Positions 1 through 43,105 of a DNA stretch of 64,000 nucleotides are shown piece after piece; within the stretch, counting starts at the first letter, position 1, and each line of letters begins with the position of its first letter. This stretch comes from a virus. Below the pieces are notes generated by a model. That model saw only the letters and a program-made list of their open reading frames with translations, was not told the origin of the DNA and ran no database searches. Made by a program: the position numbers and the translations under genes. Location: positions 1 through 64,000 of the IMG/VR virus record IMGVR_UViG_3300020193_000009. One strand, given 5' to 3'.

Positions 1-30
1 CAAAGGGAGACAAGGTGAAAAAGAGATAAT

Positions 31-80
31 GGGGCGCACACGCTTACCCTCCGAGCGTGTGCGCCCCACCCTTTTTTTGT
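31..80 (+). terminator. Terminator of a cassette cut by the left window edge
   Basis: A 13-bp stem (GGGGCGCACACGC with GCGTGTGCGCCCC) has an 11-nt loop and is followed by CTTTTTTT. It has the same loop sequence as the terminator at 2249. It shows that the cassette array continues to the left of the window; no end of a gene can be recognised in bases 1-30. Confidence 0.85.
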
Positions 81-86
81 CTTTTT

Positions 87-187
87 GCAGGGCGGGCGCT
101 AGGTGCGCATAGCAGCTTGCACGCCCTTTCTCACGATGTATGCCATTACAAGGTTTAGTATGGTTTCTTGGTGTAATGATACGCTGG
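87..187 (+). repeat. Cassette boundary element, copy 1 (hairpin + promoter-like block)
   Basis: The hairpin half has core GGTGC-GCATA-GCAGC, with one mismatch at the second pair, inside a GGGCG/CGCCC outer stem. It is followed by the conserved block AAGGTTTAGTATGGTTTCTT and a TANNNT -10-like hexamer TACGCT at 180-185. The ORF at 235 follows. Confidence 0.9.
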
Positions 188-234
188 TAGTGTCGTTGAG
201 ATTACAACCGAGACACTCACGACAGGAGACAATA

Positions 235-588
235 ATGAATACGCAGGTCATCATCAGGGCTATCCTTACTGCGATGAGCAGTCTGGACAGCAAGCACCCG
301 AATGTCGGCGTGTGGTTGCCAGAAGCGACCATTGCTCGCTTGGGTGAGCGAGATGAGAAGGCAGACAGGCAGATGCTCCAGCAATGGTTCAATCGCATTG
401 TCGCTGTTGCTGGCAATGTGAATGTCGGCTGGGTTCACACCGTTATGTTCGACAATGACGGGATGTGGAATGTGTCGGAGTGCTATCTGGCGTTGGCTGG
501 TCACACACCGACTGTGTTCATCGGCAAGCGTTACGGCGTTGGAACGCAAGTCATTCCAGGGCAACCGATGAGCGAATGGTTGTGGTAG
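235..588 (+). CDS. Cassette protein A, unknown function (family A/E)
   Basis: The product is a 117-residue soluble protein with no recognised domain. I chose ATG 235 because GACAGGAG lies just upstream; a longer in-frame ORF from 103 would run through the promoter block. It is a paralog of the cassette protein at 2452: both share HP..VWLP, QQWFNRI..VAG.VNV.WVH and a SECYL or CECYL segment. It sits alone between its own promoter element and terminator, so it should be made from a monocistronic mRNA. Codon use is more GC-rich than in the minus-strand genes. Confidence 0.8.
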   Translation: MNTQVIIRAILTAMSSLDSKHPNVGVWLPEATIARLGERDEKADRQMLQQWFNRIVAVAGNVNVGWVHTVMFDNDGMWNVSECYLALAGHTPTVFIGKRYGVGTQVIPGQPMSEWLW

Positions 589-596
589 GAAGTTTC

Positions 597-642
597 GGGC
601 GAGGGGCGCAAGCCCCTCGCCCACTTTCTTTTATCTTTTTTT
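597..642 (+). terminator. Terminator of cassette A
   Basis: An 11-bp stem GGGCGAGGGGC/GCCCCTCGCCC is closed by a GCAA tetraloop and followed by T-rich sequence (CTTTCTTTTATCTTTTTTTT). Confidence 0.9.
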
Positions 643-643
643 T

Positions 644-743
644 GCCGGGAGGGCGATCGGTGCGCATAGCACCTTGCACGCCCGCACACACGGTGTATGG
701 GTTTCTGGGTTTAGTAAGGTTTCTTGGCATACTGATACGCTGG
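644..743 (+). repeat. Cassette boundary element, copy 2
   Basis: Hairpin core GGTGC-GCATA-GCACC lies inside GGGCG/CGCCC. The promoter-like block GGGTTTAGTAAGGTTTCTTG is followed by a TACGCT -10-like hexamer at 736-741. Confidence 0.9.
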
Positions 744-790
744 TTGATGTCGGGGAAACACCAATAGACACCCCGACAAGGAGACAAGTA

Positions 791-1108
791 ATGAACACGG
801 AAACGAATGGGATAACGGTCGGCAATATGGCGACCATTCTCAGCGAGGTGATACTGGTAATGCTCGGCGGCATTCGCCTAGCGTTCCCAGTCGCAAGGCA
901 ATACGACATCGACAACCTCGGCTGGCTGGATAGTGGAATGCAGAATGCTGACGAGGCAATCAACTACTTCGTTCAGGTCGCAACCCACGAGTTCCGCAAC
1001 GAGGGCGAACCCAACAACTACGAGTTCGCACTTGATGCAATCAAGGAGGAAACGACCAAGTTGGTAAAGTGGTACAGCAACCTCAAACCCAACTACCAAT
1101 CACGATAG
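791..1108 (+). CDS. Cassette protein B, unknown function
   Basis: The product is a 105-residue protein, mostly helical by composition, not recognised. ATG 791 follows AAGGAGACAAGTA, a good ribosome-binding site; the longer ORF from 674 would start inside the boundary element. A hydrophobic patch (ILSEVILVMLGGIRLAF, about residues 16-32) could be a buried helix or a membrane segment. The leader contains GACACCCCGACAAGGAG, also seen in similar form before the ORF at 1901. Confidence 0.75.
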   Translation: MNTETNGITVGNMATILSEVILVMLGGIRLAFPVARQYDIDNLGWLDSGMQNADEAINYFVQVATHEFRNEGEPNNYEFALDAIKEETTKLVKWYSNLKPNYQSR

Positions 1109-1128
1109 CCCAGACAGACGGGCAAGAG

Positions 1129-1178
1129 ACGAGCGCACCGACAAGCGGTGCGCTCGTTTCTTTTTTGTCTTTTTTTTC
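1129..1178 (+). terminator. Terminator of cassette B
   Basis: A 12-bp stem ACGAGCGCACCG/CGGTGCGCTCGT with a 5-nt loop is followed by two runs of T. Confidence 0.9.
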
Positions 1179-1278
1179 GTGGGAGGGCATTAGGTGCGCA
1201 TAGCACCTTGCACGCCCACTCACACGGTAGATGTCGTTTCCGGGTTTAGTACGGTTTCTTGGTGTAATGATAGTGTGG
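1179..1278 (+). repeat. Cassette boundary element, copy 3
   Basis: Hairpin core GGTGC-GCATA-GCACC. The block GGGTTTAGTACGGTTTCTTG is followed by a TAGTGT -10-like hexamer at 1271-1276. Confidence 0.9.
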
Positions 1279-1390
1279 TAGGTGTAAGCGGGCAGTCGTG
1301 CGCCCGATACAATCGTCTGCTGGCAGACCAGCGACTCAAGCACGGCTAGTCTGCCACCCAACAACGGCAGTCGTTCGGATAATGACTGCC
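1279..1390 (+). promoter_or_regulatory. Long structured leader of cassette C
   Basis: This leader is longer than the others. It holds an 8-bp perfect inverted repeat TGGCAGAC (1321-1328) / GTCTGCCA (1349-1356). A second hairpin at 1366-1390 has 10 pairs (GGCAGTCGTT/AATGACTGCC, one G-T) and loop CGGAT, just before the ribosome-binding site. The CGGAT-loop hairpin recurs before the ORFs at 3496, 4038 and 4577. Confidence 0.6.
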
Positions 1391-1404
1391 AGAGAGGAAT
1401 GGCA

Positions 1405-1695
1405 ATGTCAGACTACTCAGCCAAGAGTCGGCACATCACTCAGCGTGGTTCACGAGAGCAGGAGTTCATCACCTTCCTGCTTGACCGAGCCTGCCCTGCG
1501 GAGGTGGAACTGGTCACGAACGAATGGCACGAGGACGGTACGGAAGTTGTTCGCAAGACCTTCCTTATCGACCTATGCTGCCAGCGTGTGGAGGTCACTG
1601 CCGAGCGCAACCCTGACAACACTTGGTCACTCATCAAGTGGAATGAATACGCCGTTCTCACCCGATACGAGGACGGGGTGGTAACAGCAGAATGA
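1405..1695 (+). CDS. Cassette protein C, unknown function
   Basis: The product is a 96-residue, probably beta-rich soluble protein, not recognised. Two ATGs are in frame, at 1399 and 1405. AGAGGA ends at 1398, which gives workable spacing only for 1405, so I prefer that start (sequence MSDYSAKSRH). The central part alternates charged and hydrophobic residues (TEVVRKTFLIDLCCQRVEVT). It is monocistronic and follows an unusually long structured leader. Confidence 0.75.
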   Translation: MSDYSAKSRHITQRGSREQEFITFLLDRACPAEVELVTNEWHEDGTEVVRKTFLIDLCCQRVEVTAERNPDNTWSLIKWNEYAVLTRYEDGVVTAE

Positions 1696-1700
1696 GATGT

Positions 1701-1750
1701 GGGAGTCGAGGCGAAAGCCTCGGCTCCCCTCTTTTTTTGTCTTTTTTTTC
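1701..1750 (+). terminator. Terminator of cassette C
   Basis: Stem GGGAGTCGAGGC/GCCTCGGCTCCC (one G-T pair) with a GAAA tetraloop, then CTCTTTTTTTG and a second T run. Confidence 0.9.
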
Positions 1751-1850
1751 GTGGGCGGGCGCTAGGTGCGCATAGCAACTTGCACGCCCACTCACACGAT
1801 AGAACGCATTACAAGGTTTAGTACGGTTTCTTGGCATAAAGGTAGCGTGG
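1751..1850 (+). repeat. Cassette boundary element, copy 4
   Basis: Hairpin core GGTGC-GCATA-GCAAC (one mismatch) lies within GGGCG/CGCCC. The promoter block is followed by a TAGCGT -10-like hexamer at 1843-1848. Confidence 0.9.
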
Positions 1851-1900
1851 TGGTGTCGGGAGCAACACCAATAGACACTCCCGATAAGGAGCAATACGCA

Positions 1901-2233
1901 ATGACCATATTCACACTACTCGTGGTGTTGGTTGCCACGACTGCGAGCGCACTCACAATGACGCTCGCATACACAATGACCAAGCGACTAGTTGCGTCGG
2001 AAACGAAACAACTACGCAGGCAACTCCACCAAGCCCAACTGAAACTCCGATACCGAACGGAGCGCCACCAGCGGGATTTGGAGAGCGCTCTAACTATCGC
2101 ACGACACGCAATAAGGGCAAGGGATTATTTCAAGACTTTCGCCCCGTCATCCGCAATGGGTACATTTGACCAAGATGGCAAATACATCCCCAGTGCGGTG
2201 GCTGCGATGAAACGGCGTGAGAACAACCTGTAA
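1901..2233 (+). CDS. Cassette protein D, membrane-anchored coiled-coil protein
   Basis: The product is a 110-residue protein. Residues about 3-25 (FTLLVVLVATTASALTMTLAY) form one hydrophobic segment, either a membrane anchor or a signal-like helix. They are followed by a basic, heptad-like helix (about 33-70, rich in Q, R, L) and a polar C-terminus. The family is not recognised. ATG 1901 follows AAGGAG with suitable spacing. It could be an envelope-associated phage protein acting on the host, but this is inference from topology alone. Confidence 0.75.
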   Translation: MTIFTLLVVLVATTASALTMTLAYTMTKRLVASETKQLRRQLHQAQLKLRYRTERHQRDLESALTIARHAIRARDYFKTFAPSSAMGTFDQDGKYIPSAVAAMKRRENNL

Positions 2234-2248
2234 TACCGAAGCCGAGAT

Positions 2249-2302
2249 GCCCCACGCGCTTACCCTCCGAGCGCGTGGGGCGTTTCTCTTTGTCTTTTTT
2301 TT
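2249..2302 (+). terminator. Terminator of cassette D
   Basis: An 11-bp stem GCCCCACGCGC/GCGCGTGGGGC with loop TTACCCTCCGA (identical to the loop at 31-67) is followed by GTTTCTCTTTGTCTTTTTTT. Confidence 0.9.
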
Positions 2303-2403
2303 GCCGGGAGGGCATTAGGTGCGCATAGCACCTTGCACGCCCGCACACACGGTGTATGCCATTACAAGGTTTAGTACGGTTTCTTGATGTAATGATAGTG
2401 TGT
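2303..2403 (+). repeat. Cassette boundary element, copy 5
   Basis: Hairpin core GGTGC-GCATA-GCACC, the conserved promoter block, and a TAGTGT -10-like hexamer at 2396-2401. Confidence 0.9.
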
Positions 2404-2451
2404 TGGGTGTTGAGGAGATTACAACCTAGACACTCCCAACAGGAGAAAGTA

Positions 2452-2754
2452 ATGGAAACGTTCACCCAAGCGATTACGCAGGCAATGGCAAGCCTGTCTC
2501 CTAGCCACCCAGAAACTGCGGTGTGGTTGCCAATGGCAACCTACACCCAGCGGGGCGAAGGGCTGGATGCGCAGATGTGGTACGACCACTACCAGCAGTG
2601 GTTCAACCGCATTGCGTTCGTCGCAGGGCAGGTCAATGTTCACTGGGTTCACTCGGTGCGTATTGATGAGAACGGCATCTCGCAAGTCTGCGAGTGCTAT
2701 CTCAGCCCGACAGGCTCGGTAGAGCCGATAAGGGTTATCGGCGTTCGTGGTTAG
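2452..2754 (+). CDS. Cassette protein E, unknown function (family A/E)
   Basis: The product is a 100-residue protein, clearly paralogous to the one at 235 along most of its length; the C-terminal tail differs and is shorter. ATG 2452 follows AGGAGAAAGTA. The leader (GAGATTACAACC..AGACACTC) is also nearly the same as that of the ORF at 235, so gene and leader were probably duplicated together. Function unknown. Three other cassettes lie between the two copies. Confidence 0.8.
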   Translation: METFTQAITQAMASLSPSHPETAVWLPMATYTQRGEGLDAQMWYDHYQQWFNRIAFVAGQVNVHWVHSVRIDENGISQVCECYLSPTGSVEPIRVIGVRG

Positions 2755-2807
2755 AACGCCATAACTGCGCCAAGGTTATTAGGCACGGAGTGCCACTTGA
2801 CGCAGGA

Positions 2808-2857
2808 GTTGGGGCGGGTGCGAAAGCACCCGCCCCAACTTTCTTTATCTTTTTTTC
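2808..2857 (+). terminator. Terminator of cassette E
   Basis: A 14-bp stem GTTGGGGCGGGTGC/GCACCCGCCCCAAC with a GAAA tetraloop, then TTTCTTTATCTTTTTTT. The stop at 2754 is about 50 nt upstream, a longer 3' gap than in neighbouring cassettes. Confidence 0.9.
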
Positions 2858-2957
2858 GTGGGCGGGCGATCAGTGCGCATAGCACCTTGCACGCCCACTC
2901 ACACGGTAGATACGATTACAAGGTTTAGTACGGTTTCTTGATGTAAAGGTAGTGTGG
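2858..2957 (+). repeat. Cassette boundary element, copy 6
   Basis: Hairpin core (A)GTGC-GCATA-GCAC(C), the promoter block, and a TAGTGT -10-like hexamer at 2950-2955. Confidence 0.9.
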
Positions 2958-3006
2958 TGGGTATCACCAACGCCTGAACAAGAAGTAGGGCAAGGGGGTA
3001 TCTGTA

Positions 3007-3297
3007 ATGGTAAAATTCAAACGGCGTTATGTAAGTCCGAAAGTTAGGGCTCGCTTCTATCTGAATGCTCGGGAGCGCACCAAAATGCTTGAGGACAATC
3101 GGGGAAACGCATTTATGTGTCGGTTGATATTCCTAGCGTCTATCAATCGGGGTGCTCTGGAGAACTTCCTTCAGAAAGTGCGTGATGAAACTCCTTTCAC
3201 CCCCGAAGTTATTAGACCAAGCGAGCGTGCTCTGACCAAGGGGCGTTCGCCCAAGCGTCAAGGTACAAGCAAGAAGTTTCCGAGACTTGGAGACTAA
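3007..3297 (+). CDS. Cassette protein F, basic protein of unknown function
   Basis: The product is a 96-residue, strongly basic protein with K/R-rich N- and C-termini (MVKFKRRYVSPKVRAR; GRSPKRQGTSKKFPR) around a short helical centre. The charge suggests nucleic-acid binding, but no fold is recognised. ATG 3007 follows CAAGGGGGTATCTGTA. It is monocistronic. Confidence 0.75.
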   Translation: MVKFKRRYVSPKVRARFYLNARERTKMLEDNRGNAFMCRLIFLASINRGALENFLQKVRDETPFTPEVIRPSERALTKGRSPKRQGTSKKFPRLGD

Positions 3298-3303
3298 GAA
3301 AGT

Positions 3304-3340
3304 GGGCGAGACGCGCAAGCGTCTCGCCCCTTTTTCTTGT
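3304..3340 (+). terminator. Terminator of cassette F
   Basis: An 11-bp stem GGGCGAGACGC/GCGTCTCGCCC, GCAA tetraloop, then CTTTTTCTTGT. It starts 6 nt after the stop codon. Confidence 0.9.
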
Positions 3341-3344
3341 CCCG

Positions 3345-3446
3345 GGGCGGGTGGGCGATCGGTGCGCATAGCACCTTGCACGCCCGTTCACACGATAGAC
3401 ACGATTACAAGGTTTAGTACGGTTTCTTGATGTAATGATAGTGTGG
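3345..3446 (+). repeat. Cassette boundary element, copy 7
   Basis: A clean example. Outer stem GGGCG (3353-3357) / CGCCC (3381-3385); an asymmetric internal loop ATC/TTGCA; inner stem GGTGC/GCACC; loop GCATA. The promoter block is followed by TAGTGT at 3439-3444. Confidence 0.9.
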
Positions 3447-3460
3447 GTCTTACCAACAGC

Positions 3461-3479
3461 AGTCGTTCAGATAACGACT
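3461..3479 (+). promoter_or_regulatory. Leader hairpin with CAGAT loop
   Basis: A 7-bp stem AGTCGTT/AACGACT closes loop CAGAT, about 17 nt before the start codon at 3496. It matches the leader hairpins at 1366, 4004 and 4542; the stem at 4004 has compensating changes. Confidence 0.6.
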
Positions 3480-3495
3480 ACGGAAATGAGATGAA

Positions 3496-3834
3496 ATGAC
3501 CACAGACAAAATACTCCATACAGTTGAACTTCCACTCAACCCAGACAACCACTATGGAACGGCAAGCACAGCGCTTGACTTGTTTCATCGGGTGAGTATT
3601 GCCCACATAATGGGTGAAGCGTCTGGCGAACTGATTCAGGTATGGCTAGGTACACCGACTAATGCCAAACTGTTCACGCTCGTAGGTACTGCCAAGAAAG
3701 ACGGAAAGATAGTCTTTGTTGGTGAGTGTGCTGACCCCGATTTCCCAAAGGAGGTTGACGGTATTCGCGTCAATAATCTCTTTGCGTTTGAGGCAACACC
3801 GAACACTCGGATAAATGTAAAGACACAGCAATAA
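3496..3834 (+). CDS. Cassette protein G, unknown function
   Basis: The product is a 112-residue soluble protein of mixed alpha/beta composition, not recognised. The region around residues 49-75 (LIQVWLGTPTNAKLFTLVGT.. KIVFVGECADPDFP) looks like consecutive beta strands. The start at 3496 has only a weak ribosome-binding site (GAGATGAA), shared with the cassettes at 4038 and 4577. All three carry the small leader hairpin instead of an AGGAG-type leader. Confidence 0.75.
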   Translation: MTTDKILHTVELPLNPDNHYGTASTALDLFHRVSIAHIMGEASGELIQVWLGTPTNAKLFTLVGTAKKDGKIVFVGECADPDFPKEVDGIRVNNLFAFEATPNTRINVKTQQ

Positions 3835-3840
3835 GAAAGT

Positions 3841-3887
3841 GGGCGAGAGGCGCAAGCCTCTCGCCCCTTTTCTTTGTCTTTTTTTTT
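3841..3887 (+). terminator. Terminator of cassette G
   Basis: An 11-bp stem GGGCGAGAGGC/GCCTCTCGCCC, GCAA tetraloop, then CTTTTCTTTGTCTTTTTTTT. Confidence 0.9.
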
Positions 3888-3988
3888 GCAGGGTGGGCGA
3901 TCGGTGCGCATAGCAGCTTGCACACCCTTTCACACGATACACGGTGTTTCTAGGTTTAGTACGGTTTCTTGGCATAAAGATAGTGTGC
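3888..3988 (+). repeat. Cassette boundary element, copy 8
   Basis: Hairpin core GGTGC-GCATA-GCAGC. The outer 3' arm reads CACCC here and can pair with GGGTG just upstream, an alternative outer stem. A TAGTGT -10-like hexamer lies at 3981-3986. Confidence 0.88.
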
Positions 3989-4000
3989 TTACCAACAACA

Positions 4001-4023
4001 GCAACCGTTCGGATAACGGTAGC
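4001..4023 (+). promoter_or_regulatory. Leader hairpin with CGGAT loop
   Basis: Stem ACCGTT/AACGGT (4004-4009 / 4015-4020) closes loop CGGAT and can be extended by GC/GC. Compared with GTCGTT/AACGAC at 4542, both arms have changed together, so the pairing is kept. Confidence 0.6.
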
Positions 4024-4037
4024 AGAAACGAGATGAA

Positions 4038-4376
4038 ATGAAACACAACAACAACAACAACTTGTATTGGACATTCGGTAGGCTGGGGGAAATCGTTGCG
4101 ACGAATACCGCAGTCACGCTCAACACAGAACATTTCACCCAGCAGGAATGGGGGTGGATAAACGAAGCAACGGATGGTTGGCGGCAGGATGTCGCTATCG
4201 CCTGTTTCGTTCGTTCGTGGTATCGCTTCAATCGACAGATGAGCGAGAACGGACTTCCATGCAAGTGGTGCTCGTTCGTTGAGGATGAGACAACTGAACA
4301 CGGATGGGTGTGGCTGACCTGCAACGACCCAGCACAGTCAATCACGTCAGAGGGTTGCGATTGGGGAAACTGCTAA
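4038..4376 (+). CDS. Cassette protein H, unknown function, Cys/Trp-rich
   Basis: The product is a 112-residue protein rich in Trp and Cys. It begins with a poly-Asn run (MKHNNNNN, encoded by an AAC repeat). C-terminal half: PCKWCSFVEDETTEHGWVWLTCNDP..CDWGNC. The pairs CKWC and CDWGNC, with a His between, could bind a metal, but spacing fits no family I know. It is monocistronic with a CGGAT-loop leader. Confidence 0.75.
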   Translation: MKHNNNNNLYWTFGRLGEIVATNTAVTLNTEHFTQQEWGWINEATDGWRQDVAIACFVRSWYRFNRQMSENGLPCKWCSFVEDETTEHGWVWLTCNDPAQSITSEGCDWGNC

Positions 4377-4382
4377 GAAATC

Positions 4383-4422
4383 GGGCGAGAGGCGCAAGCC
4401 TCTCGCCCACTTTCTTTGTCTT
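4383..4422 (+). terminator. Terminator of cassette H
   Basis: An 11-bp stem GGGCGAGAGGC/GCCTCTCGCCC, GCAA loop (same stem as at 3841), then CTTTCTTTGTCTT. Confidence 0.88.
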
Positions 4423-4525
4423 GCGGCGGGTGGGCATTAGGTGCGCATAGCAACTTGCACGCCCGCACACACGATAGACACGATTACAAGGTTTAGTACG
4501 GTTTCTTGGCATAAAGATAGTCTGG
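4423..4525 (+). repeat. Cassette boundary element, copy 9
   Basis: Hairpin core GGTGC-GCATA-GCAAC, the promoter block, and a TAGTCT -10-like hexamer at 4518-4523. Confidence 0.9.
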
Positions 4526-4541
4526 TGGGTATCTACAAGCA

Positions 4542-4558
4542 GTCGTTCGGATAACGAC
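4542..4558 (+). promoter_or_regulatory. Leader hairpin with CGGAT loop
   Basis: Stem GTCGTT/AACGAC closes loop CGGAT, about 18 nt before the start codon at 4577. Confidence 0.6.
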
Positions 4559-4576
4559 AGCAGAAAAGAGAATGAG

Positions 4577-4885
4577 ATGAAAGAGTACGAAGCAGCAAAG
4601 TCATTTGACCCGATGTTCATCATCACCGTTCAGGGGCTGGTGCGTTCAGCACTTGTCTCGCTCAAGCGTTCACGCAAGGCAGGTGGAGTGCCTATCGTGA
4701 CGTGGCGAGAGACCGTTGGTAATCCCAACATTGAGTTGATGAAAGCAATGCTCACCTACGCAACTCGTGTTGTGGCTGAGGAACTCAACCGTGATGTTGA
4801 GACCTACTTCATCCAAGAAGTCGTGGACAACGCACGACGCTTGGAAATCACGGCAATGGTTCAGCGAACGGAGTGGGACGGATGA
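4577..4885 (+). CDS. Cassette protein I, unknown function
   Basis: The product is a 102-residue helical protein, not recognised. Hydrophobic and charged residues alternate as in a helical bundle (IELMKAMLTYATRVVAEELNRDVETYFIQEVVDNARRLEI). The leader carries the CGGAT hairpin and a weak GAGATGA-like site. It is monocistronic. Confidence 0.75.
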   Translation: MKEYEAAKSFDPMFIITVQGLVRSALVSLKRSRKAGGVPIVTWRETVGNPNIELMKAMLTYATRVVAEELNRDVETYFIQEVVDNARRLEITAMVQRTEWDG

Positions 4886-4892
4886 AAGATTC

Positions 4893-4939
4893 GGGGTGGG
4901 GGCGCAAGCCTCCACCCCACTTCTTTTTTTATCTTTTTT
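4893..4939 (+). terminator. Terminator of cassette I
   Basis: Stem GGGGTGGGGGC/GCCTCCACCCC (one G-T pair), GCAA tetraloop, then ACTTCTTTTTTTATCTTTTTT. Confidence 0.9.
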
Positions 4940-5040
4940 GCCGGGTGGGCGGTAGGTGCGCATAGCACCTTGCACGCCCGTTCACACGATGAAGCCATAA
5001 TGAAGGTTTAGTACGGTTTCTAGGCATAGTGTTAGCGTGG
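4940..5040 (+). repeat. Cassette boundary element, copy 10
   Basis: Hairpin core GGTGC-GCATA-GCACC within GGGCG/CGCCC. The downstream block is slightly diverged (CGGTTTCTAGGCATAGTGT), with TAGCGT at 5033-5038. Confidence 0.9.
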
Positions 5041-5090
5041 GGAGTGCCGATGAGATAACAAACCTAGACACTCACGGCAAGGAAAGAACA

Positions 5091-5396
5091 ATGGCAAAGG
5101 TAAACCTGAAGGACATACAAGCAAGGCTCGTGAAGCGTGGGCGTGAAGCCTACGAGAACGAGAGCCTGAGCGCAGAACTGCTTGCGCTCACGCACGACAC
5201 GACTGACGCTTTCATCTTTGATGAAGCGACTTTCGCTGGCGAAGCGAAGGCAGACAACCCCGACTATGTGAACCACAAGAACTTGTGGCGCAACCGTGTC
5301 GGTTCCATTGCTGAGCGCAACGGAATCCCAAAGGATTCGCTGAGCGTTCAATGGACTGTTGATGGCGAGATGGTAGTCTCGTACAAACAGTCGTAG
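5091..5396 (+). CDS. Cassette protein J, unknown function (family J/K/L)
   Basis: The product is a 101-residue protein and the first of three consecutive paralogs. Shared features are the N-terminal VNLKDIQ.RLVKRGR(E/D)A, a central DAF(I/L)(F/Y)EA, then HKN..RNRV and a C-terminal VQWT..GE.VVS strand. ATG 5091 follows AAGGAAAGAACA. The longer ORF from 5037 would begin inside the promoter element. No known domain is recognised; the fold looks alpha plus beta and soluble. Confidence 0.82.
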   Translation: MAKVNLKDIQARLVKRGREAYENESLSAELLALTHDTTDAFIFDEATFAGEAKADNPDYVNHKNLWRNRVGSIAERNGIPKDSLSVQWTVDGEMVVSYKQS

Positions 5397-5412
5397 GCAT
5401 ACGCAAGGAAGG

Positions 5413-5443
5413 CGCCCGACCCGAAAGGGTCGGGCGTTTCTTT
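5413..5443 (+). terminator. Terminator of cassette J
   Basis: A 10-bp stem CGCCCGACCC/GGGTCGGGCG, GAAA tetraloop, then TTTCTTT. Confidence 0.88.
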
Positions 5444-5444
5444 G

Positions 5445-5484
5445 GCTGGGGTTCAAGGTGCTACTCGCACCATTGAACCCCAGC
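5445..5484 (+). repeat. Inverted copy of the boundary hairpin, copy 1
   Basis: A 12-bp arm GCTGGGGTTCAA pairs with TTGAACCCCAGC, inner stem GGTGC/GCACC, loop TACTC and one bulged A. Read on the minus strand, the core (GGTGCGAGTAGCACCTTG) matches the boundary hairpins that precede the cassettes. It is therefore an inverted copy placed behind the terminator. Confidence 0.85.
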
Positions 5485-5530
5485 TGGCTCCGGGGTGCTC
5501 TCTAGATCTCTTTAATACATATTCTCAGCT

Positions 5531-5633
5531 TGTGCGGGCGGGCGCTGATGCGTATAGCATCTAGAACGCCCGCCCCATAGGAATAGGTGTTTCACAAGGT
5601 TTAGCACGGTTTCTAGGCATAGTGATAGCGTGG
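5531..5633 (+). repeat. Cassette boundary element, copy 11 (variant)
   Basis: A 9-bp outer stem GGGCGGGCG/CGCCCGCCC (5536-5544 / 5567-5575), inner stem GATGC/GCATC, loop GTATA. Both arms of the inner stem changed relative to GGTGC/GCACC, keeping the pair. TAGCGT lies at 5626-5631. Confidence 0.88.
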
Positions 5634-5682
5634 AGGGTGCGGGGAGCAATACCAACCAAACAACCCGCAAGGAGAAACAACT

Positions 5683-5985
5683 ATGAAAGTAAACCTGAAA
5701 GAAATCCAATCCCGCCTCGTCAAGCGAGGGCGTGAGGCATACGAGAACGCAAATCTCGTAGCCGAACTCCAAGCGCTGGACGCTGGCGACCCAACGGATG
5801 CTTTCCTCTTCGAGGAAGCGACCTACGAGGGTGAGTGCTCGTCAACGAACGAGGACTACACGAACCACAAGAACCTGTGGCGCAACCGTGTGTCGTCGCT
5901 CGCTGGTCGCTACCTCGGGGACGAGGTGGAAATCTCCGTCCAGTGGACGGATAAGGGCGAAATGATAGTCTCGTTCCGCCAGTAA
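5683..5985 (+). CDS. Cassette protein K, unknown function (family J/K/L)
   Basis: The product is a 100-residue paralog of the proteins at 5091 and 6268, closest to 5091. ATG 5683 follows AAGGAGAAACAACT. Same layout: VNLKEIQSRLVKRGREAYEN, DAFLFEEA, NHKNLWRNRV, VQWTDKGEMIVSF. It has its own promoter element and terminator. Function unknown. Confidence 0.82.
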   Translation: MKVNLKEIQSRLVKRGREAYENANLVAELQALDAGDPTDAFLFEEATYEGECSSTNEDYTNHKNLWRNRVSSLAGRYLGDEVEISVQWTDKGEMIVSFRQ

Positions 5986-6000
5986 TACCGCAATAAGGAG

Positions 6001-6031
6001 CGCCCCGCCGAGCAATCGGCGGGGCGTTTCT
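6001..6031 (+). terminator. Terminator of cassette K
   Basis: An 11-bp stem CGCCCCGCCGA/TCGGCGGGGCG with a GCAA tetraloop, then TTTCT. The T-tract is short; the inverted hairpin at 6036 follows at once. Confidence 0.8.
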
Positions 6032-6035
6032 CGGC

Positions 6036-6071
6036 GGTCGTTCAAGGTGCTATTCGCACCATTGAACGACC
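6036..6071 (+). repeat. Inverted copy of the boundary hairpin, copy 2
   Basis: Arms GGTCGTTCAA/TTGAACGACC, inner stem GGTGC/GCACC, loop TATTC, bulged A. The outer arm differs from the copies at 5445 and 6607 with matching changes on both sides. Confidence 0.85.
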
Positions 6072-6120
6072 GGCTGTGAGAATGCCTATCTCACTTACTT
6101 TTAATATGCATTTCTATTTA

Positions 6121-6222
6121 TGGCGGGGGTTCGATGGAGCGTATAGCTCCTTGAACACCCGCTCTCTAGGCAAGCGCATAAATAGGCGTTTAGTATGTTC
6201 TCAATACACAAAGATACGCTGG
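6121..6222 (+). repeat. Cassette boundary element, copy 12 (variant)
   Basis: Stem GCGGG/CCCGC, then GTTC/GAAC, then inner stem GGAGC/GCTCC with loop GTATA. This is a second set of paired changes relative to GGTGC/GCACC. The promoter block is the most diverged (GGCGTTTAGTATGTTCTCAA); the -10-like hexamer is TACGCT at 6215-6220. Confidence 0.85.
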
Positions 6223-6267
6223 ATGTTGTGAACGGGATACCAAACACAAAGAAAGGCAGGTAGCACT

Positions 6268-6549
6268 ATGAAAGTGAACCTGAAAGACATCCAATCCCGA
6301 CTAGTCAAGCGTGGGCGTGACGCATTCCAGGACCCAATCCTGGAAGCCGACCTACTCGCACTTGACCCTGCGAACGAAGATGATGCGTTCATCTACGAAG
6401 CAGGACAAGGCAATCCCGACGACGATAACTTCGTTGCGCACAAGAATAAGGTGCGCAATCGGGTTATCTCAATGGCGAAGACACACTCGCTAGAAGTCAG
6501 CATCCAATGGACTGACTTAGGCGAGTGCGTTGTTAGCCTAGCCAAATAA
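6268..6549 (+). CDS. Cassette protein L, unknown function (family J/K/L)
   Basis: The product is a 93-residue protein, the shortest and most diverged of the J/K/L paralogs, and the last plus-strand gene. N-terminus VNLKDIQSRLVKRGRDAF is nearly identical to K; the centre is shortened; the C-terminus is IQWTDLGECVVSL. The start at 6268 follows AAAGGCAGGTAGCACT, a moderate ribosome-binding site. Function unknown. Confidence 0.82.
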   Translation: MKVNLKDIQSRLVKRGRDAFQDPILEADLLALDPANEDDAFIYEAGQGNPDDDNFVAHKNKVRNRVISMAKTHSLEVSIQWTDLGECVVSLAK

Positions 6550-6575
6550 CCAATGGTATTCCCGTTCACACGGAG

Positions 6576-6607
6576 TGCGTGCGCCGAAAGGCGCACGCAT
6601 TTTCGTT
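6576..6607 (+). terminator. Terminator of cassette L
   Basis: A 10-bp stem TGCGTGCGCC/GGCGCACGCA with a GAAA tetraloop, then TTTTCGTTT. Confidence 0.85.
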
Positions 6608-6644
6608 TGGTGTTCAAGGTGCTATTCGCACCATTGAACACCAA
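6607..6644 (+). repeat. Inverted copy of the boundary hairpin, copy 3
   Basis: Arms TTGGTGTTCAA/TTGAACACCAA, inner stem GGTGC/GCACC, loop TATTC, bulged A. It marks the right end of the recognisable array. Confidence 0.85.
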
Positions 6645-12128: not shown

Positions 12129-13064
12129 TCACTCCATATTTTGTATTTTGTTTGATTTGGCAATAACCATCTCGTATTTATCCGAAATGACCGGCATTGT
12201 ATTTGTATCCAAATAAATATCACCATCACGAATTAATTCAAGTACTTTTGCAGCCATTGAATAATTAATAGAAGCCATATCTATTTCTGGATATCGTTCA
12301 TCATCTCCATCTCCATAATTGTATGGTTGCTCAAGTTTTCTAAATACATCTAACTCTGTAGCATTAGGATTTCTATCTTTTAGATCACACAGCATAGCCC
12401 AAATACTATTAGCTTCGCCATAAAATAACTTTCTGCCTATGATCACCGGCATATTTAAGAAGTTGCAAGCAACTTGTTCAAATAACACTTGTTGATTACT
12501 GTAATACCTTGAAGCTTCAACTATCAAATCTTCTTTCCAATCCAATGCTACTGCCATAGCAAATCCAGCAATACAACCAACAGTGCTACAATTGAATGCT
12601 TTTGTTGTTGAAATAAAAGCACTGTATGTCCTTGTTTCACTATCAAGTGGACTAAGATAATCACAGCTGACTGCACTTACTGTTTCAAATCCATCTAAAC
12701 TAGTTGTTTTCACTTCATCTTCATCATAGTCAGATATGTCTTCAAGGATTCCAAGAAACAACTGCATATTAAAGTGCTTTGAACCGTTAAGTTCAATTGA
12801 TGCAATTAGTTTATTAAAGTTTGTGATATTAAAATCCTTTGGTTTCATCAAAGAAAGATATCCGTTATTTTGCTCTATAATATCATGCCATTTTTGAACT
12901 ATGTGAGCAACTTCTTCGTCTTCGAAATATTTAAAACCAATATCTTGAATCTCTATATTACAATCGATATAAGTGGTAAAAAGGTCGTTAACTGATGGTT
13001 TAGTTAAGACTATCTGCTCTCTCACTTCTTCGAGTACTTTATTGTTGTTGATAACCGTGCTCAT
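12129..13064 (-). CDS. Paralog of the protein at 10949, unknown function
   Basis: The product has 311 residues. The conserved block is CSTVGCIAGFAMAVALDW followed by FLNMPVIIGRKLFYGEANSIWAM. The N-terminal half is acidic and contains an insertion relative to the paralog. The start follows CAGGAGAAAATAA. Pattern and local duplication suggest accessory phage proteins under diversification; no reaction can be named. Confidence 0.7.
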   Translation of the reverse strand: MSTVINNNKVLEEVREQIVLTKPSVNDLFTTYIDCNIEIQDIGFKYFEDEEVAHIVQKWHDIIEQNNGYLSLMKPKDFNITNFNKLIASIELNGSKHFNMQLFLGILEDISDYDEDEVKTTSLDGFETVSAVSCDYLSPLDSETRTYSAFISTTKAFNCSTVGCIAGFAMAVALDWKEDLIVEASRYYSNQQVLFEQVACNFLNMPVIIGRKLFYGEANSIWAMLCDLKDRNPNATELDVFRKLEQPYNYGDGDDERYPEIDMASINYSMAAKVLELIRDGDIYLDTNTMPVISDKYEMVIAKSNKIQNME

Positions 13065-13990: not shown

Positions 13991-14587
13991 TTACTTTGTT
14001 GATTTTTCTTGCTCTTGTTGATACTTATCCATCATTTGCCAGAACCTTAAATTTTCTCTCTCAGCATTTTTTTTATGAGCTGCCAGGGTAATAAGATTGC
14101 CTGTAGTTTTATAAACCACTTTGCCAGTATGATAAAACATCCTTCCATCTTTGAAAGTATGTTTCCACTTTTCACCCTCTTCGCCAGACCAAATTATATA
14201 TGATCCATCTTCAATATAATATGCTAGTGCGCAAAGAAAGATATCTTCATTGCCGGTTTTGCTATTATACCAAAGAGAGTTAATTCCTCTTTCATCTTCG
14301 TGTACATCAAACCCAAGACCATGTAATATTTCTTGGAGTGTCTTATACTTTAAGTGATAATCTGCTGGCATCCAACTATACCATTTAGCTGGATGATAAT
14401 CTAATCCATCCGGTCTAATAGATTTTTTGTCTAATTCACCACCATATGAACCACCAGATTTCATTACATCAAAATCTGGGTCTGTATTCAACCAGCATAA
14501 ATTCTTGTATGCTTCATCAAATTTTTCTTTCTTGATGAACACATCATTAGGTGAATAGCATTCATCAATGTTTACATAGTAACCCAT
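13991..14587 (-). CDS. Unknown phage protein, 198 residues
   Basis: A soluble protein with conserved-looking segments GYYVNIDECYSP, YSWMPADY, ILHGLGFDVHEDERGINSLWYNSK. Proteins with this layout occur in other phages as far as I recall, without known function. The start follows GAAGATAAAAC. It ends 20 nt before the hairpin at 13971. Confidence 0.65.
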   Translation of the reverse strand: MGYYVNIDECYSPNDVFIKKEKFDEAYKNLCWLNTDPDFDVMKSGGSYGGELDKKSIRPDGLDYHPAKWYSWMPADYHLKYKTLQEILHGLGFDVHEDERGINSLWYNSKTGNEDIFLCALAYYIEDGSYIIWSGEEGEKWKHTFKDGRMFYHTGKVVYKTTGNLITLAAHKKNAERENLRFWQMMDKYQQEQEKSTK

Positions 14588-14610
14588 GTTTTATCTTCTT
14601 TCTTTTGTTG

Positions 14611-15141
14611 TTATAATGACCAGTGACTAGCGCCACCGTTATCGTATAAATATCTTGCTACTTTAAGATTACAATCAACATCAAACAGACCATTAATTGA
14701 TGTTCCACAAATGTTTTTTGTAACTGTTTTCCAAGTCGAATTAACTTGCAGCAATCCTAAATCACTCGAGCCATCTTTATTCAATGTGGTATTGTGTGCT
14801 TTAGGATTACATCTACTTTCACGCCACGCTATATAAGAAAATAGCTTTGGTGGTAAGCCATACTCAACAAATTTAGACTCCCATTCAGGACATCTTTCAG
14901 ACTTGTCTCTTGGGATTCTATTCTTTGTAATTTGCTCAACTTTTGCCATTGGCAATGTTGTTGTAGTAGATGTAGTAGATGTAGTAGATGTTGTAGTGAT
15001 TGTTGTTTCTTCAACAATTACAACTTCAACAACAGATTGTTTTTGGTAAGAATCTTCTACTACTGTTTTTGTAATGATAGCGCCTGCAAAAGCGCCATAT
15101 ATTAAGCCTATAATTGCTATATAAGGCTGTGATTGAAACAT
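14611..15141 (-). CDS. Membrane-anchored lytic transglycosylase (SLT/lysozyme-like)
   Basis: The product has 176 residues. A membrane span lies at about residues 7-25, then a Thr/Ser-rich linker (about 46-62), then an SLT-type domain: YIAWRESRCNPKA (catalytic Glu about 108), SDLGLLQVNSTW, and C-terminal helices. It should cleave murein glycan strands outside the membrane, for lysis or for DNA entry. The domain is short, as in small resuscitation-factor-like and phage enzymes. The start has GGAGGAAATATT. The linker is coded by a short TAGTAGATG-type microsatellite, which may vary in length. Confidence 0.8.
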   Translation of the reverse strand: MFQSQPYIAIIGLIYGAFAGAIITKTVVEDSYQKQSVVEVVIVEETTITTTSTTSTTSTTTTLPMAKVEQITKNRIPRDKSERCPEWESKFVEYGLPPKLFSYIAWRESRCNPKAHNTTLNKDGSSDLGLLQVNSTWKTVTKNICGTSINGLFDVDCNLKVARYLYDNGGASHWSL

Positions 15142-30788: not shown

Positions 30789-30965
30789 CTAAACTATTTT
30801 CGAAGAGTTTTTTTCTTGTTCCTGCTTGATCATCTTTACCAAACCATTTATCTGTGCAGTAAGCACCGCGTTTTGAGCTACTAAATCAGCAATTTTATCT
30901 GTAAGAATTGCTATAATATCTGCCGCTTCTACCTGTATGTTTTTGTTTATATCGATTCTATCCAC
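30789..30965 (-). CDS. Small coiled-coil protein starting with GTG
   Basis: The product has 58 residues in a different frame from the terminase gene end, overlapping it by 19 bp. The site AGGAGGTGGGAAA before GTG is excellent. The protein is a heptad-like helix (VEAADIIAILTDKIADLVAQNAVLTAQINGLVKMI in parts), probably oligomeric. Not recognised; strong start signal and fit into the gap support it. Confidence 0.62.
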   Translation of the reverse strand: MDRIDINKNIQVEAADIIAILTDKIADLVAQNAVLTAQINGLVKMIKQEQEKNSSKIV

Positions 30966-32686
30966 TTTCCCACCTCCTGTCCTGGTACATTTAATTCCTT
31001 ATATCCGGGCGTGAATTCTCTCAAATTATGATTATACACGCTTGCTGTGCCAAATTCTTCGAGATCTTCATCAATCTCTGACTGCATAGAAAAATCTAAG
31101 ATTTCTACTTCTACTTCTTGTTCGACCGCCATATTTTCTACACAATTAAATACCGAACCAGCCAAAGAATCTGCCATATCTTTTGAACCACCAGATGGGT
31201 GATCAATTTTATTATTACTAAATAATCTAAGCTTAAGTAGCTCTTCATTTACCAATATCTCGTTCCAATATCCTCTTAATCTTGTATCGTATATAGATGT
31301 CATTAATGTGTCATAGTCAGTCTTTTTTACGCTATGAAAATCAGCTGCGATTCCTTGCGCTCTCAAACTTTGAATCATTTCAATAGATTGCCATCTATCA
31401 AATGTAACTTTAGCTACATCAAACTTTCTACACAAATCGACTATCATTTGCCTCACAGATGCAAAATTAATTTCTTCGCCTGGTGCGGCTTGCCAAGAAT
31501 ATATTAAATCAACATTTATTACCGGAAGCTTTTCTACGCCCATAGAAGTTTTAATTTCTTTAAACCCAGCACAATGTGTCAAACAAAGAGCTGATCTATC
31601 TCTTTTAAATCCTAAGTCAACATGTATAAATCTTCTGTGACCATCTGAATTATTAAACCATTTATGAAACCTTCCATCTTCATCAATCGGATCATCTGCA
31701 TACATAAATGCTTTTCTAACTAAATCTTCATCTCTAAAATATGCGTCTTCCATTGTAGGTGGTTCACATTCAAATCTCGATGCAGCTTCAATAGGATTTC
31801 TTATGTATTCAGACTCAAGATCAGATCTCTTAATTGTTGGATTAACTTCCCAGGTAGCTGCTTTTATATACCATGTTTTTGGCTCGTTTTTTTCATGAGC
31901 ACCAAAATATCTTTGTTGAATAAAATCACCTTTATATCTAGGGAATGATAATAAAATTACTTTACCTACTTCTGGGAATCGTGACATCACAGATAACTTG
32001 CTCATATTATATATTGCAGAAGCTGACCCTTTAGCTCTTGTATCACCTTTTAATTCGATATCTGTTTTAAAAGCAGAGATCTCGTCTAAGACTATAGTTA
32101 ATACTTCATAACCTTCCCATCCTTCACTTTCTGAGTGACCGGAGAATAGCCTTACTGGTCTGGAAAAGAAAAAGATTTCTGACACTCTAGGTTCAAACCC
32201 AACGCTATTAAAATACGGAGATCCAAGCAATAGGTTTTTTAACGGCTCAAAGAAAACCCTTTGAGCTTGCTGTGCGTTTACAGCTAGGTTTAGTAGGTCA
32301 ACATATACGCCATTTGCTTTACCGTAGTAACTGAGAGGATCGCGTAAACAATGTAGCAAATAAGCCGTATATGCGATTGAAATTCTGCTACAATGGTCTT
32401 TGCCAGACCCCTTACCTAACATACAAATTACTTCATTATCAGTATATTTTTTATAGTATTCGAGACCATTATGTTCACCCATAAGCTTTTGCAAAGTCGG
32501 CAATTTAAATATTTGCGTACTGTGTCGAACTATTTCAAGCTGTATATTAGACAATGGCGGCAAGCCAAGATATTTTTTTTCTTGTACAAATGTTTCAATA
32601 GATACCGGTTGTTCCATCAATTCATCTTGTCTAAGCAATCTATCAAAGTCTGCAAATTCCAAATTAATTCCAAGGTACTCAGACAT
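30947..32686 (-). CDS. terL: Terminase large subunit
   Basis: The product has 579 residues. N-terminal ATPase: MLGKGSGKD (about 89-97) as Walker A-like loop, VLTIVLDEISAF (about 200) as Walker B with catalytic Glu. C-terminal RNase H-like nuclease: FIHVDLGFKRDRSAL (about 350), VTFDRW (about 427) and DMADSLAGSVF (about 520) supply acidic residues. It packages DNA into the prohead. It follows the small subunit, with a short repeat region between. Confidence 0.88.
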   Translation of the reverse strand: MSEYLGINLEFADFDRLLRQDELMEQPVSIETFVQEKKYLGLPPLSNIQLEIVRHSTQIFKLPTLQKLMGEHNGLEYYKKYTDNEVICMLGKGSGKDHCSRISIAYTAYLLHCLRDPLSYYGKANGVYVDLLNLAVNAQQAQRVFFEPLKNLLLGSPYFNSVGFEPRVSEIFFFSRPVRLFSGHSESEGWEGYEVLTIVLDEISAFKTDIELKGDTRAKGSASAIYNMSKLSVMSRFPEVGKVILLSFPRYKGDFIQQRYFGAHEKNEPKTWYIKAATWEVNPTIKRSDLESEYIRNPIEAASRFECEPPTMEDAYFRDEDLVRKAFMYADDPIDEDGRFHKWFNNSDGHRRFIHVDLGFKRDRSALCLTHCAGFKEIKTSMGVEKLPVINVDLIYSWQAAPGEEINFASVRQMIVDLCRKFDVAKVTFDRWQSIEMIQSLRAQGIAADFHSVKKTDYDTLMTSIYDTRLRGYWNEILVNEELLKLRLFSNNKIDHPSGGSKDMADSLAGSVFNCVENMAVEQEVEVEILDFSMQSEIDEDLEEFGTASVYNHNLREFTPGYKELNVPGQEVGKWIESI

Positions 32687-42600: not shown

Positions 42601-43105
42601 AATCATCTTTAAATATCTTTAAAAAGCGCTCCGATAACTCTTGAGCCCTATTTGTATCTCCCGCCAAAATTGATTTTGATATAGCACTCGCCATACAACC
42701 GGAAAGCGCAATAATATCATTGTCTACCAATTCTTCAAGAAGATTAAAATCCATTCTAGGCTTGTAGTAAAAATTGTCGCTCCAAGCTTTTTGATTCATC
42801 TTAAATAATTTTTGCAAACCTTCATTTGTTTTAGCAAGGAGTATTAAATGAAACCTTTCGCTTGTGTCTTTTGCATCGTGTTCAATTGATGGTACAAAGT
42901 AGGCTTCAATACCAAACAATGGTTTAACATTGTGTTTATTACAAGCATCTTGGAATTTTAACACACCGCCCATTGTACCGTGGTCTGTAATTGCGGCGGC
43001 AATTTGTCCATTAGTGCTAGTAATTTTGGCAATTTCATCCGGCGTTGACATTCCATCAAGCAGTGAATATTCAGAATGACAATGTAAGTGAACAAATTCA
43101 GTCAC
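39698..43105 (-). CDS. dnaE: DNA polymerase III alpha subunit (DnaE-type)
   Basis: The product has 1135 residues, full length for DnaE. PHP domain: HLHCHSEYSLLDG (6-18), DHGTMGG, GIEAYF. Polymerase core: GRGTGRGSVGGSVLAYLLDI, then PDIDLDFEDKRRDEV with catalytic Asp residues. C-terminal OB-fold: LTLIKAVVRSTKKAQNYLRVEFEDHSGSCTVFG. GTG start at 43105 with AAGGAGAAAAA. The PHP histidines look intact, so proofreading-type metal binding is possible. It is the main replicative polymerase of the phage. Confidence 0.95.
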   Translation of the reverse strand: MTEFVHLHCHSEYSLLDGMSTPDEIAKITSTNGQIAAAITDHGTMGGVLKFQDACNKHNVKPLFGIEAYFVPSIEHDAKDTSERFHLILLAKTNEGLQKLFKMNQKAWSDNFYYKPRMDFNLLEELVDNDIIALSGCMASAISKSILAGDTNRAQELSERFLKIFKDDFYYEIQAWNPKELNDGLISLAGTYNRPVVATADCHFPTKHDKGCEEILLMLSQYPSLNAAEQRHAKEHADCIHVAGIDMVAKINNMYPNRFLRFDKINPYVANVDEVASWFKDAGYDRTDILENTIEVAQKCTAKLEKRKNLLPKFMRTINSDDYLAEVTSFRLKELGLGEEYVQRLNEELEIIKQLGFADYFLIVWDLVKWADNNNIGRGTGRGSVGGSVLAYLLDITKVDPIKYNLLFSRFINPERNDYPDIDLDFEDKRRDEVKNYLATRWGEDKVAAISIYGTFKPKSAVKDVARILQVPYAEINSITPFFETIEELKNTEKGKIFVRKYPDIPVLAERLQERVRTAGVHAAGMVVSAVPLTEVCPVESRKVSQGGERSAVTAFAMEDAEAVGLIKIDVLGLKTVSVIKDALAMIRERYGLDVEAQSLALDDQGVYENFNNINTVGIFQTDAAAYRNLIERMGIDNFNDLVVSNALVRPGALLSQGQKYIDCKKGDADPKYPHEVVKSILEETYGTVIFQEQLMQMAVLLAGFSWSEADSLRKIIGKKRDVAEFDKFKEKFISNPYLTKSKSDKIWSEFEMSALYMFNKSHAVAYSLMSYQTMWLKVNYPLEFVWALLYNESATDKITAYLMEAQRLGLKIYPPDINKSQEFFSMSLPGEDEGIRFGLTNVTGCGVSAIKEIFDKRPFNSFEEFNNKCSKSAVKAPLRENFDKVGAFDSMGHVSQFDHQRYYLPVLGFPIKSSEFKTEIDEFVENAADFHETMSSLTLIKAVVRSTKKAQNYLRVEFEDHSGSCTVFGERNTELAQRDYVYALIGDRTLHAYCDVYQAQDSKLFNVMMMKKQGLDHKYAWVYKHDIGFINDPKTMMYVFNIRNFITSSGKEMASVYCWDGKQFFKVVIFAAVYKKVKGLLKKGEWYVARLSRVEDKETLNRLDSFKLDSADKIITIEDYIERKQIKKMQIEMV

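Follow-up and report, generated by a model that had tools for sequence, protein, structure and literature searches.

The window, our name for positions 1-64,000 (64,000 nucleotides, and not the array alone) of the 80,668-bp lake phage record IMGVR_UViG_3300020193_000009 (IMG/VR), contains between 87 and 6644 an array of small genes which are separated from each other by a terminator, a conserved hairpin and a promoter-like block. We consider it probable that this is a modular array of single-gene transcription units, exchanged via shared boundaries in a lytic-type relative of actinophages, and that it represents an early host-takeover region. On the nucleotide evidence, the existence of the units and their conservation across about ten phages, their variable content and order, the junctions at their boundaries and the selection on hairpin base pairs can be regarded as established.

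Organization of the array

Twelve small open reading frames (ORFs) of 93-117 codons, all starting with ATG, were identified on the plus strand of this region. Every one of them (12/12) has the common element upstream and a terminator downstream, as had been claimed by an earlier reading of the letters (the sequence-only reading), and both the block and the hairpin model were found at all 12 positions. A unit is composed, in this order, of a GC-rich hairpin (~40 nt), a spacer of ~25 nt, the promoter block GGTTTAGTACGGTTTCTTGG, a TANNNT hexamer, the 5' untranslated region (UTR), the ORF and a terminator-like hairpin. The stretch from TANNNT to ATG is about 50 nt or more and includes a Shine-Dalgarno-like sequence.

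The copies of the promoter block (n=12) are located at 153, 709, 1244, 1816, 2369, 2923, 3412, 3954, 4491, 5006, 5599 and 6188. Ten of the twelve elements align across 122 nt at 61-100% identity with a spacing of 489-572 nt; elements 11 and 12 are diverged, the latter having GTTTAGTATGTTCTCAATAC as its block. In the complete 80,668-bp record the block pattern occurs in the array only, on the plus strand in every case, and the reversed pattern gave no matches. The first 6 kb of the window have 51-53% G+C and genes on the plus strand, and the rest has about 30-42% G+C and nearly all genes on the minus strand. The array also extends to the left of the window, as anticipated: positions 14520-14715 of record IMGVR_UViG_3300020214_000252 (L104), which form its end, are 100% identical to window positions 1-196, and this record contributes three extra cassettes, which brings the array to 15.

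TANNNT starts 26 or 27 nt past TTTA/TTGA in 84 of the 85 elements known from ten phages (in the window, its first base is 26 nt past TTTA), compared to 2.3% of random array positions, which bears out the constant distance noticed before. The distance from the end of the hairpin to the start of the block is about 21-29 nt in nearly all elements. The hairpin terminators expected behind each ORF were equally found, since a scan returned 24 terminator-like hairpins in the array against 7.5 +/- 2.8 in shuffled sequence (~3x), with one behind every cassette; those of cassettes 10-12 have weaker T-tracts.

Exchange of cassettes among related phages

Relatives were found in IMG/VR by searches with DnaE, family A proteins, the ancestral block TTGAATACACATTCTCA and a flanking nuclease. 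Nine further related arrays have the same layout (L105, L122 or G003, L124, L125 or G013, L126, L127/L128, L129, L132/L152 and L136), giving about ten phages in all with 85 elements; further arrays are present in L339 and L381. With letters for protein families, a hyphen for singletons and A' for a divergent family A member, the window array (15 units, including those of L104) reads -,-,H+I,N,-,J,-,N,-,-,-,-,A,A,A. The others read H,I,-,B in L105; -,I,H,-,B,-,A,A,A in G003; O,G,C,D,B,A',E,A,A in L124; G,C,D,B,A',E,A,A in L125; F,G,C,D,E,B,A' in L136; F,G,C,-,D,E,B,A',A,A,A in L129; F,K,C,D,E,B,A',A in L132; K,O,-,-,-,-,A,A in L126, with L and M as second genes; and F,R,S,J,T,A,A in L127.

Families E, H and I shift position among the relatives and many cassettes are private to one phage. 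The order H-I of L105 is I-H in L122, and E stands ahead of B in L129, L136 and L132 and behind A' in L124 and L125. The window array and that of G003 have only four of the 15 cassettes in common despite a DnaE that is 92% identical, and N,N and A,A,A in the window array are paralogues. The same element is thus found beside unrelated genes in variable order, and a fixed order in all relatives, which the sequence-only reading had named as the outcome contrary to it, was not found among the related arrays compared. The order is nevertheless partly fixed: family A is always at the right end and the middle C-D-E-B-A' is semi-conserved. Because of this constant right end and semi-conserved middle, the rearrangement of the cassettes is a semi-ordered shuffling and not a free one, as judged from the arrays at hand. 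With this restriction, the proposal that the repeat is a cassette boundary allowing gain, loss and shuffling agrees with what was observed, since content and order vary and identity switches at the elements.

DNA identity between phages begins and ends at the hairpin, the promoter block, the 5' UTR or the terminator, with junctions at -68, -1, +38 to +96, or inside terminators. L136 is the clearest mosaic. Over 5.35 kb on the left side of the array it matches L125 at 96.0% identity, but its cassette 1 is that of L129, with identity that begins in the left flank and lasts until roughly the start codon of cassette 2. Its cassettes 2-3 match L125 (94.7% between +38 and position -60 of the element that follows, and 96.4% from +40 onwards), and for its cassette 7 the most similar counterpart is in L132 (93%). 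At one join, a three-way alignment passes from the L129 type to the L125 type across the common 5' UTR sequence GTCAAGGCAATCCCGCCGAGACAGA. Other blocks of identity cover an entire element while the ORF that follows differs; they run from -68 to +82 (96.7%), from a terminator to +88 (95.3%) and from a terminator to +74 (94.4%). This pattern looks like the expected trace of recombination in short conserved boundaries. No tyrosine recombinase (PF00589) was detected in any of the 13 records (14/14 controls were positive) and no Y1 transposase (PF01797) in the same 13, none of which is certified complete. Cassette exchange would be most simply explained by homologous recombination.

We propose that a unit comprises the hairpin, a promoter made of a block of 17-20 bp at about -38 to -20 and the TANNNT as -10, a Shine-Dalgarno sequence, one small gene (sometimes two) and a terminator. 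Since conserved DNA is present at both ends of every unit, recombination between boundaries can move single genes; within one genome or between co-infecting relatives, it would lead to genes being duplicated, deleted, reordered or swapped one by one. Each gene would keep its expression through the exchange, as it carries its own promoter and terminator. The array resembles an in-built shelf for the exchange of genes that change fast. These about ten uncultured freshwater-type phages offer a sequence-defined system in which to study how phages trade accessory genes singly and without loss of expression, and dozens of uncharacterised small proteins are delivered already parsed into units.

Promoter block, hairpin and alternative explanations

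Within one genome the blocks are much alike (88% in the window, 91% in G003). Between the window and its close relative G003 the likeness is 65%, and to most others 41-59%; in three orthologous family A cassettes of window and G003 the blocks are just 60-70% alike. As blocks are alike within a genome and diverged between orthologous cassettes, the units track the genome and not the gene, and this concerted change would thus come about via homogenisation or via co-evolution with a recognising factor. A regulator and the many sites it recognises thus seem to evolve in step, a testable point. The block was also considered as a common host promoter, and this was rejected: TTGAATACACATTCTCA had 40 matches in 257 Gb of cellular genomes with ~30 expected by chance, and no taxon was favoured.

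In each array we also observed a second copy of the TTTAATACATATTCTCA-like motif, lacking a matching -10, ahead of the first hairpin and ~140 nt upstream of the first promoter block (L104 12924, L105 15995, L122 5810, L125 5752, L127 6185, L129 4842). Such copies likewise precede some of the inner hairpins and recur on the right side of the array (window about 5513, 6100 and 6669).

The hairpin was described with a covariance model which, being trained partly on window copies, matched all 12 window positions with E values of 9e-11 to 2e-8. Its matches are confined to the arrays in the 472 kb of related sequence searched, including the whole records G013 and G027, and an Rfam search of five array loci returned transfer RNAs only. 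In 56 distinct hairpin sequences, the alignment of which leaves out the L124, L125 and L126 lineage (TTCA-like loop), the 14 proposed pairs form in 83.4% of cells, and 68 changes affect both sides of a pair. Covariation scores 0.284, compared with 0.126 +/- 0.012 when shuffled and <=0.083 with slid partners. Because this score exceeds both controls, we conclude that base pairs are selected and the structure is kept by compensatory changes. The loop is mostly GNNTA with a C-G closing pair, and a G.A mismatch recurs at columns 8-37.

Where cells mismatch, G.T (52) far outnumbers A.C (7), and the plus strand folds better in 49 of the 56 sequences. Both observations favour a folded plus strand, to judge from the alignment; strand-biased mutation could add to the G.T count, more than half of those cells being at one pair. 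Three inverted copies of the hairpin, absent from the sequence-only reading, lie on the minus strand 3' of the terminators of the last three cassettes, all of family A, at 5445-5483 (43.0 bits on the minus strand and 20.0 on the plus), 6034-6072 (46.6 bits) and 6607-6644 (43.9 bits), the last one being the right end of the array. They are almost perfectly paired, with no G.T, and for this reason an argument from them against mutational strand bias fails. New here are the compensatory maintenance of the hairpin, its confinement to the arrays and its inverted twin behind one gene family.

A folded strand located between genes, with covariation, G.T excess and better plus-strand folding, is also what would be expected if the array was transcribed into long read-through RNAs and the hairpins were RNase III-like processing sites yielding single-gene messages, the block being regulatory and not a promoter of each gene. 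We regard this as unlikely, as strong terminators stand before almost every hairpin, the TANNNT at fixed spacing resembles a -10, and the inverted hairpins on the minus strand are unfit for plus-strand processing. Somewhat less probable still, in our opinion, is that the hairpin is a strand-specific folded site for a dedicated factor which insulates or switches units and also directs their movement, making the arrays an integron-like phage cassette system distinct in its recombinase. The stricter integron-like explanation, by which the folded hairpin is a single-stranded recombination site where a dedicated recombinase inserts, excises and reorders cassettes, would account for one-gene cassettes in a single orientation, for the imperfect stem with a recurrent mismatch, an asymmetric loop and pairing that is conserved above sequence, and for the restriction of the hairpin to arrays. 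It is very unlikely given the recombinase and transposase searches reported above, the junctions that fall also at the promoter block, 5' UTR, start codon and terminator instead of one hairpin point, and the presence of own promoters and of inverted copies, which would be unexpected.

Two other explanations seem to us highly improbable. The many copies of the hairpin, and the inverted ones that resemble terminal inverted repeats at both ends of family A cassettes, could suggest a selfish element similar to repetitive extragenic palindromes (REP) or miniature inverted-repeat transposable elements (MITE), spreading by itself and lying at gene boundaries by happenstance; its fixed distance to the promoter, the lack of copies outside the arrays in the sequence searched and the failure to find a transposase in the 13 records speak against it. 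In the same way, the repeats could be structural DNA sites for replication, packaging or partition, with cassette shuffling as a by-product, and the dense GTAANNTTAC palindromes that take the place of the array at a related locus in two phages (G027 and L193) are as would be expected for protein-binding arrays; yet this leaves the -10 hexamer, the one gene per element and the terminators unexplained.

Several points weigh against the modular array of independently transcribed, early genes that we prefer. All records are metagenome contigs and possibly incomplete. An independent transcript for each cassette is predicted from sequence; a sigma-70 scan gave no site at any array element, the block is unlike a sigma-70 -35, and a search for phage sigma region 4 (PF04545) found none. 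We infer that the block would be a promoter dependent on an activator or on an alternative factor. The hairpin, lying downstream of a terminator and upstream of a promoter, would be transcribed only upon read-through. Its role is the weakest part of our explanation: it may act as a folded single strand, in read-through RNA or single-stranded DNA, for instance insulating a unit from its neighbour, or may bind a protein. Conserved hairpin and unusual block together hint at novel regulators. Finally, terminal redundancy and early timing rest on a distant relative, as the terminase (window 30947-32686) and the DnaE-like polymerase (39698-43105) have their best relatives in Stanwilliamsviridae Streptomyces phages at 41% and 37% of amino acids (aa), respectively; no direct DNA relatives were found among isolated phages.

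Cassettes, flanks and comparison with known systems

The features of the window array lie on the plus strand, inverted copies apart; terminators were located by the terminator scan and elements by the hairpin covariance model. The terminator at 30-68, supported also by the overlap with L104, belongs to the left neighbour that starts in that record. Element 1 (89-185; hairpin 89-128, block from 152, TACGCT 180-185; matched also by the block pattern) precedes cassette 1 (235-588, 117 aa, family N, a paralogue of cassette 5 at 47.5% aa) and terminator 1 (597-622). Element 2 (646-741; hairpin 646-685, then block and TACGCT) is followed by cassette 2 (791-1108, 105 aa, an ORFan) and its terminator (1124-1162), element 3 (1180-1276) by cassette 3 (1405-1695, 96 aa, family J, present too in the L127/L128 arrays) and terminator 3 (1701-1728), and element 4 (1752-1848) by cassette 4 (1901-2233, 110 aa, an ORFan with a hydrophobic N-terminus) and terminator 4 (2244-2286). 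Element 5 (2305-2401) leads to the second family N gene, cassette 5 (2452-2754, 100 aa, terminator 2805-2842).

The next four cassettes encode ORFans: cassette 6 (3007-3297, 96 aa) between element 6 (2859-2955) and terminator 6 (3304-3329); cassette 7 (3496-3834, 112 aa) between element 7 (3348-3444) and terminator 7 (3841-3866); cassette 8 (4038-4376, 112 aa) between element 8 (3890-3986) and terminator 8 (4383-4408); and cassette 9 (4577-4885, 102 aa) between element 9 (4427-4523) and terminator 9 (4893-4918). Family A occupies the remaining three, namely cassette 10 (5091-5396, 101 aa) with element 10 (4942-5038) and a terminator with a weak T-tract (5420-5434), cassette 11 (5683-5985, 100 aa) with element 11 (5535-5631) and a symmetric stem with a weak T-tract that the scan listed on the minus strand (6001-6026), and cassette 12 (6268-6549, 93 aa) with the diverged element 12 (6124-6220, located also by a spacing count) and terminator 12 (6572-6603).

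None of the cassette proteins gave a match above cut-off in Pfam, PHROGs or PADLOC. Family A (window 5091-6549) has the signature K-x-N-L...KRGR...NHKN-x-W-R-N-R-V...W and occurs two to four times at the right end, in those arrays whose sequence extends that far. Its AlphaFold model (pLDDT, the predicted local distance difference test, of 88.6) had one BFVD match, an uncharacterised phage protein (E 4e-4), and no matching fold in the PDB.

Where the left edge is reached, the array adjoins a region of nuclease and oxygenase-like genes, directly after a conserved small terminator-like RNA; where the right edge could be read, it stops before an AT-rich stretch and minus-strand genes. In every relative reaching the left edge, the first element has ACCTTAGGACCGTTATAG or its one-base variant CTTGGGACCGTTATAG directly to its left, and behind this sequence come a hairpin and, as a rule, a run of T (L104 about 12827-12900, L105, L110 17776-17850, L122 5712, L124, L126, L127, L129, L132 and L136; reversed in L114, about 14780-14850). 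CTTAGGACCGTTATAG is the exact reverse complement of the universal H69-H71 sequence of 23S ribosomal RNA (rRNA). The match of L114 to the 23S rRNA complement is about 31 nt with two differences. A viral scan for CTTAGGACCGTTATAG-type sequence gave at least 115 matches, and among the matches listed none is in a 23S gene and most are RNA-plus-terminator-like. Such sites may represent a widespread phage small RNA antisense to 23S rRNA, for which a limited literature search found nothing.

At the corresponding place, G027 (L114 7792-13655) and L193 (9763-10631) have another array type with dense GTAANNTTAC palindromes, some inside genes (37 in the 20-kb L114 with 0.65 expected, and 8 in L193 with 0.33 expected). 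L193 is 85-90% identical to L104 in DNA until shortly before the array, and its nuclease is 97% identical. As the flanking DNA agrees and the arrays differ, a whole array type can be exchanged for another.

Like the array, integrons line up single genes in the same orientation and have a boundary site that folds, but no integrase was found in the 13 records, the cassettes here have promoters, and junctions are not at one site. The start-associated sequences (SAS, 13 bp) and extended SAS (ESAS) of cluster K mycobacteriophages also precede many small non-structural genes, with a consensus that varies between subclusters (PMC3203893). They have GGGATAGGAGCCC 3-7 bp before the start codon, whereas our element has a different sequence, without GGGATAGGAGCCC, and ends about 50 nt before ATG; for ESAS, the authors saw little support for RNA pairing and no per-gene terminator was described (PMC3203893).

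Streptomyces phage Yaboi (NC_048730), one of the distant Stanwilliamsviridae homologues recognised by terminase and DnaE, has gene-terminator-box-promoter arrays in its 12.4-kb terminal repeat, where most small genes are so separated, and cluster BE1 phages have terminal repeats of about 11 kb (PMC5764925). The likeness shown is one of layout: many small genes have their own terminator, conserved box and promoter, but the box is AAGATCTTTT-CCGGGGCGG, the promoters are of sigma-70 type (TTGnnn/TAGACT), and no hairpin of our type was seen in that array. In the host-takeover module of phage SPO1, a 12.4-kb terminal region holds small genes that are expressed early and strongly from promoters of their own (PMC6873191). 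This module resembles the array in its small genes with own promoters, which are predicted ones here, and differs in that SPO1 genes are in operons; a terminal location of the window array is by analogy only. To our knowledge, the SPO1 module has no common hairpin element. Taken with this parallel, the Yaboi terminal repeat leads to the reading that the window array would be terminally redundant and early, and suggests a host-takeover module.

The promoter early stem-loops (PeSLs) of T4-type phages (Arbiol 2010 and Comeau 2014, as cited in PMC4503421) are, in that citing account, composite units that combine a promoter with a stem-loop; they lie between small variable genes and are considered to mediate shuffling among relatives. 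Both traits are found in the array, the composite units at the level of sequence and the association with shuffling between relatives. As far as the citing account describes PeSLs, there are also differences: this phage is not a T4-like myovirus, its nearest relatives being Stanwilliamsviridae; the block is not of the sigma-70 type of early promoters; the hairpin does not coincide with the terminator, precedes the promoter, has a conserved structure and is inverted in some cases; and nearly every gene of the array has a unit. By lineage and promoter type, the array thus falls outside the PeSLs. The T4-type PeSLs and the SPO1 host-takeover module are the closest known kinds, and by its architecture the array works like both.

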